Source: an uncultured Alphaproteobacteria bacterium (GTDB taxonomy: Bacteria > Pseudomonadota > Alphaproteobacteria > HIMB59). From it: a stretch of 35,796 nt of DNA. Numbering within the stretch: position 1 is the stretch's first letter; each line of letters starts with the position of its first letter. The DNA lies in NCBI GenBank assembly GCA_902521795.1, contig CABYSX010000012.1:1-35796 (forward strand), in the 5' to 3' direction. This document shows, one piece after another, positions 22,667 to 30,303 of the stretch. Under the pieces are notes generated by a model. It was not told the origin of the DNA, ran no database searches, and saw only the letters and a program-made list of their open reading frames with translations. Position numbers and translations under genes: made by a program.

Positions 22667-22825
22667 ATGAATAATAGTTGTGAAGTATGCAAAAAGAAAA
22701 TTATAGAACCACTATATTGGGCCGATCCAAAATTTTATAGTATCCCAAAAAAGGTATTTTTTTGTGGTGCTGATTGCTCACTAATTTATTATAAGAAAAT
22801 TAAAAAATTATTTAAAATTCAATAA
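22667..22825 (+). CDS. Small Cys-pair (zinc-ribbon-like) protein, 52 residues
   Basis: ATG 22667 to TAA 22825, a frame too short for most callers. It encodes 52 residues with two cysteine pairs, C5-x2-C8 (SCEVCKKK) and C33-x3-C37 (FFCGADCS), separated by 24 residues, a spacing compatible with one zinc site of zinc-ribbon or treble-clef type. The C-terminus is Lys-rich (KKIKKLFK), suited to nucleic-acid contact. I do not recognise the family. It follows the phosphatase gene by nine bases and is followed by a terminator at 22838, so the pair looks like a complete transcription unit. The Cys pattern and the fit between stop and terminator are the main evidence that it is real. Confidence 0.6.
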   Translation: MNNSCEVCKKKIIEPLYWADPKFYSIPKKVFFCGADCSLIYYKKIKKLFKIQ

Positions 22826-22837
22826 ATTCAATATTTA

Positions 22838-22870
22838 TAGCTATGCATATTTTGCACAGCTACTTTTTAA
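22838..22870 (+). terminator. Rho-independent terminator after the phosphatase / Cys-pair operon
   Basis: TAGCTATGCA (22838-22847) pairs with TGCACAGCTA (22853-22862) with one A-C mismatch and a TATTT loop, then CTTTTTAATTT. It lies 12 bases after the stop of the 52-residue gene, in the right position and direction to end that transcript. Confidence 0.65.
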
Positions 22871-22914
22871 TTTCTGCAATTTAATTTTTAACAGAATATT
22901 AGTATCTATATGTA

Positions 22915-22980
22915 TTCGAAAAACTAGCTCCAACCTTATTCCTATCCTTACTTATTCCTCCGGAGCTAGTTTATTTAAAT
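22915..22980 (+). ncRNA. Candidate small structured RNA with a G-free C/U-rich loop
   Basis: In the 222-base gap between the Cys-pair gene and the exonuclease I gene, a perfect 11-bp stem (22921-22931 with 22962-22972, AAACTAGCTCC/GGAGCTAGTTT) encloses a 30-base loop without a single G. The loop holds CTTATTCCT twice (22935-22943 and 22951-22959) and ends in TCCTCC, complementary to Shine-Dalgarno GGAGG. The sequence after the stem is only moderately T-rich, so it is not a standard terminator, and a real terminator already stands upstream at 22838. A weak TATATG at 22907-22912 could be a -10 box starting a short RNA near 22918. Strand is assumed from that. Confidence 0.45.
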
Positions 22981-23047
22981 TTTCAAAATATTAAATTTTC
23001 TAAGTAGAACTTTATTATACAAATTGAATGCATATAATTTTTAAAAT

Positions 23048-24475
23048 ATGAGTGATCGTTATATTTTTTGGGATCTGGAGACTACAGGACGAAATGATAA
23101 ATTTAATCAAATCACTCAAGTAGGTGCTGTATTAACGGATCATAACTTTGAAGTAAAAGATAAATTAGAAATACATAGCAAATTAAGAGAGGGAAAATGG
23201 TTTGAGCCAGGTGCGTTAATCACAACTGGTGTTGATCCAAGAAGTTTAATACAAAATAATTATCCAAATTATTACGAAGCAAGTACTCAATTGTATGAAA
23301 CTTTTCAAGAATGGTCATCGTCATCTGCAATTTTTGTAGGTTTTAATAATATTAACTTTGATGAACCCTTTTTAAGGCAGGCACTTTATCAAAATTTGTT
23401 ACCTGAAATTTATATGACAGTAACAAACAATAATGTGCGTATGGACGTTTTTGATATATTAAGATTAGTCTCAGTATACAGCCCAGAACATATAAAATTT
23501 AATACTGATGACCAAGGTTATCCCATACTCAAATTAGAAGAAGTTTTTAAGCTCAACAATATTTCAATAAGCTATGAGGCAGGACCGCACGATGCTGTTT
23601 TTGATAGCCTTATAACCTTAGAACTTAATAAGATACTAAATGTGAGATGTCCAAAAATTTGGAATGCAGCCTATGAATTTCGTCACAGAGATACTCCTAA
23701 AAAATTCATGCTAGAAAATTTAGTTTTTACCAATACTACTTTTTGGGGAAGAAGACCGACGATTAAATCTCAAACTCTTATAGGAGGTATACCAGGAAGA
23801 AATCATTACTATCTAGTTTATAATTTGCATACTGATCCAGCTAAGCTGATGGACTTAGATGACAAAGATCTACTTAAAAAGATGAATGATGGAGCTAAGA
23901 GAATATGTGAGGTTTTTGATGGCTCAAAATCAAAAACACTTTTGAATGAAAGTTATTCATTCAAAGATACTAAATTTGCAGAATTAGGAGTGAATGAGTT
24001 AAGAAATAGAGCAAATTTTATAAAAAAAAATGAACAGTTTTGTTCAAGGTTGATCAAACTTCATCTCTCTAATCAAAAAGAGTGGCCTGAGCCTTTTAAT
24101 GTTGAAGATAGAATTTTTGAGAGCTTTCCATCGCATCAAGATAAAAAACTAATGATTGATTTTCATACTTCTCCGAATGAAAAGAAGTATGAAATTGCAA
24201 AACACTTTAAAGACGACCGATACAAAGAAATTGCAATAAGAATCATATATGAGATAGCCCCACATACTCTACCTGAAAATGATAAAAGAAATTATGAATT
24301 TGAAATAAAAGAACGTTTTAATGATGATGACAAATCTAAATGGAATTCCAAAAATAAAATACTTTCTAGCTTAGACACTGACTTAGATAAAATGATAACA
24401 GATGAAAATGAGAGAGTTCAGTTTAAACAAAAAGTTATAACCTTTTTAAACAATGAGTCAGCAAAATGGGATTGA
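23048..24475 (+). CDS. sbcB: Exodeoxyribonuclease I
   Basis: A 475-residue 3'-5' single-strand DNA exonuclease, the same length as E. coli ExoI, acting in recombination and mismatch repair. The DEDDh exonuclease residues are visible: FWDLETTG (D9, E11), GFNNINFDEPFL in the second motif, and GPHDAVFDS with the His and last Asp. The later regions NAAYEFRHRDTP, WGRRPTIKSQTLIGG, GRNHYYLVYNL and FPSHQD fit the SH3-like and C-terminal domains of ExoI. ATG 23048 follows a run without a strong ribosome site. It stands alone, with its 3' end two bases from the convergent nucleotidyltransferase gene. Confidence 0.95.
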   Translation: MSDRYIFWDLETTGRNDKFNQITQVGAVLTDHNFEVKDKLEIHSKLREGKWFEPGALITTGVDPRSLIQNNYPNYYEASTQLYETFQEWSSSSAIFVGFNNINFDEPFLRQALYQNLLPEIYMTVTNNNVRMDVFDILRLVSVYSPEHIKFNTDDQGYPILKLEEVFKLNNISISYEAGPHDAVFDSLITLELNKILNVRCPKIWNAAYEFRHRDTPKKFMLENLVFTNTTFWGRRPTIKSQTLIGGIPGRNHYYLVYNLHTDPAKLMDLDDKDLLKKMNDGAKRICEVFDGSKSKTLLNESYSFKDTKFAELGVNELRNRANFIKKNEQFCSRLIKLHLSNQKEWPEPFNVEDRIFESFPSHQDKKLMIDFHTSPNEKKYEIAKHFKDDRYKEIAIRIIYEIAPHTLPENDKRNYEFEIKERFNDDDKSKWNSKNKILSSLDTDLDKMITDENERVQFKQKVITFLNNESAKWD

Positions 24476-29293: not shown

Positions 29294-29300
29294 AAGGAGG
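29294..29300 (+). promoter_or_regulatory. Unusually strong Shine-Dalgarno site of the binding-protein gene
   Basis: AAGGAGG lies four bases before ATG 29305. It is the only full-length Shine-Dalgarno I noticed in a window where most genes have weak or no site, and fits a protein needed in large excess over its membrane partners. Confidence 0.85.
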
Positions 29301-29304
29301 AAAT

Positions 29305-30303
29305 ATGTCAATTTTACGATTATTTACCGCGCTCTTCCTTGCATTAGGGATAACCTCCATTTCTTCTAATGTTAAAGCTGGGGCACACTGCAGTAATGTT
29401 ACAATTGCAGAAATGAACTGGGCCTCTGCTCAGGTCATCGCACACATCGACGCTGTTCTCTTAAGAGGACTTGGATGTGAAGTGGAATTAATTCCTGGAG
29501 ATACTATGCCAACAGCAACATCTCTAGTTGAAAAAGGTGAGCCTTCAATAGCTCCTGAATTATGGTCTCAAAATATAAAGCCAATCTTAGATCCTGCTGA
29601 AGCTGAGGGTTTAATCAAAAACGTTGGTAAAGTGTTTGAAGATGGTGGTGAAGAAGCAATTTGGATACCAACATACATAGCTCAAGAACATGGCATTGTT
29701 ACTATCGATGATGCTCTTGCAAGACCTGATTTATTTCCACACCCTGAAGATTCAAGTGTAGCAGGTTTCTACGGATGTCCTGCTGGTTGGAACTGTCAGA
29801 TTACTACAACTCAGATGTTTAAGGCATTCGGTATGGCTGATGCTGGATTTGAATTTATTGATCCAGGTTCAGGAGGTGCTCTTTCAGGTGCAATGGGTGA
29901 GGCATACAACAAAGGTGAAGGTTGGATGGGTTACTATTGGGGCCCAACAGCTATCCTTGGTAAGTATGATATGACAAAACTTGATGAAGGTGTTGATCAC
30001 AACCATGAAACCTGGCTTTCAGAAATCAATGATCTCAATGTAGAAGCTCCAGGCAGAAATAAATATCCTGCCTCAGTTGTGGAGACTTATGTTGGTAAAG
30101 ATATGCTAGGAAACTCAGAAGTTATGGGTTACTTGGAGAAAAGAAGCTTTAACAATACTCTTCTTAGTCAAATACTCGCATGGAAAGAAGAAAATCAAGC
30201 TGAGGCTGAAGAGACAGCATACTATTTCTTAGAGAATTTTTCTGATGTTTGGGGAAAATGGGTACCATTTGACCAAAAACTAGATATACAAAACTCTCTA
30301 TAA
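29305..30303 (+). CDS. proX: Betaine/proline-type ABC transporter, periplasmic binding protein (ProX/OpuAC family)
   Basis: A 332-residue exported binding protein. A Sec signal peptide (MSILRLFTALFLALGITSIS..., about 25 residues) ends near KAGAHC. The mature part has the OpuAC-domain pattern: VTIAEMNWASAQVIAHI, a VEKGEPSIAPELWSQN hinge region, and many Trp and Tyr (WIPTYIA, GWNC, GYYWGPTA) of the kind that cage quaternary amines by cation-pi contacts. The ligand (glycine betaine, proline betaine or a similar compound) cannot be fixed from sequence. It heads an operon with permease, ATPase, aldehyde dehydrogenase and an M19 homologue. A strong terminator after it would lower expression of the rest. 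Confidence 0.92.
   Translation: MSILRLFTALFLALGITSISSNVKAGAHCSNVTIAEMNWASAQVIAHIDAVLLRGLGCEVELIPGDTMPTATSLVEKGEPSIAPELWSQNIKPILDPAEAEGLIKNVGKVFEDGGEEAIWIPTYIAQEHGIVTIDDALARPDLFPHPEDSSVAGFYGCPAGWNCQITTTQMFKAFGMADAGFEFIDPGSGGALSGAMGEAYNKGEGWMGYYWGPTAILGKYDMTKLDEGVDHNHETWLSEINDLNVEAPGRNKYPASVVETYVGKDMLGNSEVMGYLEKRSFNNTLLSQILAWKEENQAEAEETAYYFLENFSDVWGKWVPFDQKLDIQNSL

Follow-up and report, generated by a model that had tools for sequence, protein, structure and literature searches.

A covarying hairpin RNA with a near-invariant anti-Shine-Dalgarno loop in the HIMB59 lineage of marine Alphaproteobacteria

Results

The window, as the term is used here, is the whole stretch of DNA that was analysed, 35,796 nucleotides from an uncultured alphaproteobacterium of the HIMB59 group, a group that has been equated with AEGEAN-169 and SAR11 subclade V (PMC10308909). 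The hairpin that is the subject of this study is preceded by a small cysteine-rich open reading frame (ORF) and an imperfect palindrome, and is followed by sbcB, which encodes an exodeoxyribonuclease I-like protein (Table 1). The 52-aa product of the small ORF was not matched by any Pfam or NCBIfam model above cut-off and showed weak zinc-binding-like similarity only. In some relatives the palindrome is perfect or close to it. It lies about 60 to 80 nt upstream of the RNA, probably marks where the small gene before it ends, and may possibly serve as a terminator or a regulator site. The initial annotation had taken this region to hold a separate terminator, and a conserved palindrome was indeed found there; its terminator role is likely but uncertain, as most relatives are missing the T-run after it. 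At the start of sbcB (23015-23048) there is no visible Shine-Dalgarno (SD) sequence, and a TATAAT-like box lies shortly before the ATG, which suggests that the sbcB mRNA may be leaderless or nearly so.

Table 1. Positions of the hairpin, its neighbours and a candidate target in the window
Feature	Position	Strand	Basis or remark
52-aa cysteine-rich ORF (CxxC ... CxxxC)	22667-22825	+	always adjoins the hairpin
Upstream imperfect palindrome TAGCTATGCATATTTTGCACAGCTA	22839-22863	+	conserved in alignment A1; altered in locus L103, where it is pairable by eye
Sigma-70-like promoter region in most relatives	22880-22908	+	TTGACT-N16-TATAAA; poor match in the sub-clade of the window
5' stem arm AAACTAGCTCC	22921-22931	+	sequence; covariation with 3' arm
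30-nt loop AACCTTATTCCTATCCTTACTTATTCCTCC	22932-22961	+	A, C and T only, no G; sequence and conservation
Anti-SD heptamer TTCCTCC at loop end	22955-22961	+	complementary to GGAGGAA
3' stem arm GGAGCTAGTTT	22962-22972	+	sequence; pairing kept via two-sided changes
sbcB, exodeoxyribonuclease I-like	23048-24475	+	Exonuc_X-T_C match; not counted in the RNA unit
Candidate target: betaine-binding protein gene proX, SD AAGGAGGAA (29294-29302) and start codon	29294-29307	+	

Reading of the sequence bore out the perfect 11-bp stem and the 30-base G-free loop with an anti-SD end that had been described in the initial annotation. Both copies of a doubled CTTATTCCT were likewise present in the loop of the window (22935-22943 and 22951-22959); as an invariant part of the element the repeat did not hold up, since its first copy has changed in the three divergent members described below. 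The 64-nt segment containing the hairpin gave a folding energy of -15.0 kcal/mol (z = -5.65), and equally stable structures were obtained from 0/200 shuffled sequences; for a 101-nt context fold the z value was -3.97, again with 0/200 shuffles as stable. When about 1.23 Mb of sampled DNA (from the window, its own genome, genomes G001 and G009, and the sister-family genome G130) was scanned for stems with a minimum of 10 bp and four GC pairs that enclose a G-free loop of 18 to 45 nt, four hairpins were found, and this was the only one with CCTCC in its loop. An A/T-rich stretch lies directly 3' of the second stem arm, and stem and tail together could be an intrinsic terminator of the small RNA itself, one with a large loop; a simple terminator scan did not call the hairpin. 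No Rfam family was found in the window at gathering level and none relevant to the locus up to an E value of 10, the window contains no tRNA, and the literature searched, which was of partial coverage, gave no description of the hairpin RNA.

The distribution of the element in the genus (HIMB59/AEGEAN-169 type), whose members are abundant in the ocean, was surveyed first at the DNA level and thereafter with a covariance model, one match at E 0.08 being left out of the count. The hairpin was present in 43 of 52 genomes, including all ten of those at least 90% complete, and was single-copy, at one locus per genome. The nine genomes in which it is missing are all incomplete; the 52-aa ORF is likewise missing from eight of them, and the ninth has a broken contig at this place. 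The ORF itself was found in 44 genomes, and in 43 of these, all but the one with the broken contig, it is accompanied by the hairpin. In this genome (G031:C27, locus L136), the 52-aa ORF runs straight into a fragment of a transaldolase region. The loss of the hairpin is apparent only, the contig being broken or chimeric past the ORF; the break is probably a single-cell amplification chimera by which the hairpin was removed artefactually. A candidate second copy in the window's own genome (C8:6774-6798) was rejected as a 25-nt A/T-rich chance match in an aminotransferase-like gene. Within the filters of the searches, the 162 genomes of the order held no homologue outside the genus at E <= 0.01, and a class-wide sample of 385 genomes held no member, one match there at E 0.03 not being the hairpin element. 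With relaxed search criteria, 39 sister-family genomes yielded only scattered matches with E >= 0.07 and no common site, and a search of viral contigs was without match.

Across 33 distinct loci, 83% of the loop columns were invariant as compared to 2 to 4% of those in the 3' flanks, and 25 of the 30 loop positions were fixed. Fourfold-degenerate sites of sbcB differ at 0.62 to 0.67 across the genus, yet the hairpins are 91 to 96% identical to that of the window. In three divergent members (G002, G008, and G009) the stem is held by compensatory changes; with these members added, both sides had changed in five of the 12 pairs and 99.6% of cells were paired, and pairing dropped to 32 to 63% in slid controls. 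For four of five covariation measures the real value was reached in 0/500 shuffles, counts that are not to be equated with probabilities because the sequences are related. The divergent members retain TTCCTAT(T/C)C(C/T)T and TTCCTCC as loop cores and still have no G in their loops, and TTCCTCC is invariant in all members, even where adjacent loop positions and loop length have changed. A covariation check of the stem had been proposed in the initial annotation; it yielded compensatory changes and a nearly invariant loop, not a stem and loop that vary freely. We concluded from these results that the hairpin is a structured RNA with strong selection on its loop, and that its conservation and covariation are far beyond chance. 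One of the few length changes observed was a TA insertion within the loop (CTTATATTCCTCC), found in L057:2886-2930 and L062:2899-2940.

The one-sided changes in the stem indicated which strand is the RNA. All of them give G-U when read on the + strand and A-C if read on the - strand; many loci carry a wobble, and about seven cases, as judged by eye, appear to be separate. As these changes are G-U compatible only on the + strand, the RNA strand is the + strand.

The three divergent genomes also differ in the gene that follows. There, an ABC-transporter ATPase gene takes the place of sbcB, and the hairpin and the upstream ORF (L103:1260-1418, L104:523-681, and L105:1315-1473) stay, so that the linkage of these two survives exchange of the downstream gene. 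Because the downstream gene differs, the hairpin is not the leader of one gene. The ATPase at these loci (L103:1567-3125, L104:836-2304, and L105:1665-2456) is GldA-like, and in L103 and L104 it is followed by a permease gene.

A sigma-70-like promoter with a score of 10/12, rarely reached in shuffles, was found just upstream of the hairpin in 20 of 39 distinct loci; its -10 element ends 9 to 12 nt before the stem, and the TATAAA hexamer is kept in 26 of the 39 loci. In the sub-clade of the window itself the score was 7/12, no better than that of shuffled sequence. From the promoter matches and the possible terminator after the stem, we infer a putative separate transcript of about 60 to 65 nt.

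The 3' end of 16S rRNA in the genus is GGATCACCTCCTTTC, with the tail CACCTCCTTT, and the loop therefore has the CCTCC core in common with it and can pair with GGAGGAA. In genome G001, sites of the form GGAGGAA-N2-9-ATG were enriched (47 vs 8 in a reversed control), and the proteins encoded behind them are, from reading of their sequences, largely periplasmic substrate-binding proteins. In a 273-kb sample of the window's own genome, chosen without regard to GGAGG sites, GGAGG preceded the start of 8 of 246 genes, and six of the eight encode substrate-binding proteins; a Pfam check covered ten proteins, including these eight and ProX. Strong GGAGG SDs, at about 3% of the genes in the own-genome sample, are concentrated on transporter substrate-binding proteins in two families of the order, as seen in samples from G000, G001, G009, and the sister-family genome G062. 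The proX gene (29305-30303), with an OpuAC domain and the leader AAGGAGGAAATATG, belongs to this class of binding-protein genes, and its SD could form seven perfect pairs with the loop end.

We considered whether the presence of GGAGGAA on binding-protein genes was proof of the RNA, and rejected this after a control with the sister family, which is without the RNA. Each of nine sister-family genomes has 38 to 55 GGAGGAA start sites, and in one of these genomes the sites examined were again mainly on binding-protein genes; the SD pattern thus does not need the RNA. When duplex energies were calculated between start regions and the real loop, genes for secreted proteins were favoured no more than by shuffled loops. 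The complement of the loop core (TAAGGATAGGAAT, allowing one mismatch), sought on the sense strand near starts, gave no conserved site, the matches examined being antisense or coding. The pattern of strong SDs therefore marks a plausible target class for the loop, yet is not evidence that the RNA acts there.

A search for Hfq (PF17209) gave no match in eight genomes of the genus, seven of them at least 90% complete; control genomes, including Caulobacter, were matched. The remainder of the loop is as conserved as its anti-SD part, and pairing with SDs alone is therefore an insufficient explanation. The near-invariance of the whole loop suggests that an RNA partner or a protein may read more than the heptamer.

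Discussion

It is very probable that the hairpin represents a new small regulatory RNA. Our main reading, to which we assign a probability of roughly one half, is that of a stand-alone anti-SD small RNA that masks strong SDs without Hfq and so turns down nutrient-uptake genes. We propose that a one-hairpin RNA of about 60 to 65 nt, transcribed from the + strand, would hold out its 30-nt unpaired G-free loop; that UUCCUCC and UUCCUAUYCYU would pair in trans with purine-rich SD regions (GGAGGAA, and sites like AAGGA or AGGAAUA); that masking of the SD by the loop would block ribosome binding, with no need of Hfq; and that the outcome would be repression of nutrient-uptake genes such as proX. Such genes would be the natural targets because strong SDs are rare and are found mainly on the genes of periplasmic substrate-binding proteins.

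With a covarying stem and an invariant unpaired UUCCUCC, the hairpin is built like the anti-SD-loop small RNAs, and it is outside the cuckoo/alpha-r14 family. Membership in that family was rejected on three grounds: the motif CCUCCUCCC is absent from the loops of all members, there is a single hairpin in a single copy, and there is no Rfam match. The initial suggestion of a cuckoo-like RNA thus survives as that of an analogous structured anti-SD hairpin, as attested by the covarying stem and the near-invariant loop, and falls as that of a distant cuckoo member, the features of which are absent. The NfeR1/alpha-r14 RNAs of the Rhizobiales have an unpaired anti-SD loop, and ABC transporter substrate-binding proteins have been validated as their targets (PMC10746234, PMC8844928); alpha-r14 RNAs have three hairpins, with CCUCCUCCC in each, and often several loci (PMC10746234, PMC7143759). 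The RNA described here is like them in being alphaproteobacterial and in having a conserved unpaired anti-SD loop motif with changing stems; unlike alpha-r14, it has one hairpin and one copy, its UUCCUCC lies in a 30-nt loop, and its hosts have no detectable Hfq. In AbcR1 and AbcR2 (alpha-r15), the loop motif CUCCUCCC of the 5' hairpin and a second motif repress ABC transporter mRNAs (PMC8844928). These RNAs, at 114 to 121 nt with several stem-loops and tandem copies, are unlike the hairpin and have no sequence or structural match to it. NfeR1 and AbcR1/2 are thus validated alphaproteobacterial precedents in which anti-SD loop motifs repress ABC transporter binding-protein genes (PMC10746234, PMC8844928, PMC7143759). 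For the hairpin RNA, the most likely mechanism would be that its loop masks SDs in trans, without Hfq.

Two further comparisons are of interest. The small RNAs CcsR1-4 have anti-SD loops and are located downstream of a small ORF, ccaF1. In Rhodobacter sphaeroides these four RNAs are processed from the transcript of ccaF1, a DUF1127 gene with an RpoHI/RpoHII promoter (PMC10253847). The hairpin RNA also lies downstream of a small ORF; in contrast to CcsR1-4, it is a single hairpin, and in many relatives a sigma-70-like promoter is present between ORF and hairpin. An operon of the CcsR type was rejected, as the 52-aa neighbour is not a DUF1127 (CcaF1) protein. Candidate structured RNAs in Pelagibacter ubique (rpsB, rpsL, ffh, SAM-V, and others) were likewise found by comparison (PMC2704228). 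They share with the hairpin a conserved RNA structure in a streamlined marine alphaproteobacterium, and differ from it in being mostly cis-acting leader elements.

Cold-shock proteins and ribosomal protein S1 have loose preferences for single-stranded RNA, and the hairpin might instead be a protein-binding small RNA or decoy, the loop of which is read by a CspE/CspL-type cold-shock protein or by S1, with the anti-SD match incidental. The conservation of all 30 nt of the loop beyond the anti-SD part, the lack of detectable Hfq in the lineage, and the finding that predicted duplex targets were no better than those of shuffled loops would all be consistent with this, and in Pelagibacter ubique, which is also streamlined, a role in post-transcriptional regulation has been proposed for cold-shock proteins (PMC2864753). 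We consider such a role unlikely, since loose protein preferences would not fix 25 of 30 positions, and TTCCTCC has stayed invariant despite changes in neighbouring loop positions and in loop length. Somewhat less probable still is a trans-pairing RNA whose main targets are not SDs, the whole loop pairing with one or a few specific mRNAs or, as a sponge, with a small RNA. A full loop that is near-invariant across the genus is what would be expected for a long fixed partner; against it, no conserved sense-strand complement was found outside the RNA in a search made with the loop core.

The position of the hairpin between two same-strand genes, the short distance of 75 nt that separates its end from sbcB downstream in the window, and the A/T-rich sequence after its stem could point to a terminator or a cis-acting leader for a neighbouring gene. 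This is quite improbable. Intrinsic terminators are marked by a GC-rich stem, a short loop, a T-run, and a loop free in sequence, a description that the hairpin does not fit; terminator loops are not kept at such a level, and here a 30-nt loop is nearly invariant. Another palindrome is already present 3' of the upstream ORF, the hairpin is still there in the three divergent genomes with an unrelated gene downstream, and sbcB has its own TATAAT-like box near the start and no visible SD to control. A DNA-level element, either a protein binding site or a single-stranded DNA hairpin, would account for a highly conserved single-copy inverted repeat and is very improbable. The stem changes, with wobbles at many loci, fit G-U pairing on just one of the strands, and the symmetry expected for a dimeric protein site is lacking from the long loop that separates the arms. 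The one-strand wobble pattern was also the ground for rejecting a single-copy palindromic site for DNA recombination or segregation.

Returning to SD masking by a small RNA, we suggest that, with strong SDs occurring almost exclusively on genes for transporter binding proteins, a generic anti-SD loop could become a selective regulator of these genes in this lineage. It is possible, although we hold this broader view only tentatively and as rather doubtful, that a minimal RNA of one hairpin and about 60 nt restrains nutrient uptake globally, without Hfq, in these streamlined ocean bacteria. Protein regulators are few in streamlined marine bacteria, and the means by which such cells adjust their uptake of nutrients are a standing question. 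The hairpin is a precise candidate that can be tested, in a group with at least two cultured strains. Even if its targets were to be others, it represents a clearly covarying RNA family that Rfam does not contain; if the proposal is true, it would provide a simple post-transcriptional handle on transport proteins in genomes without detectable Hfq.
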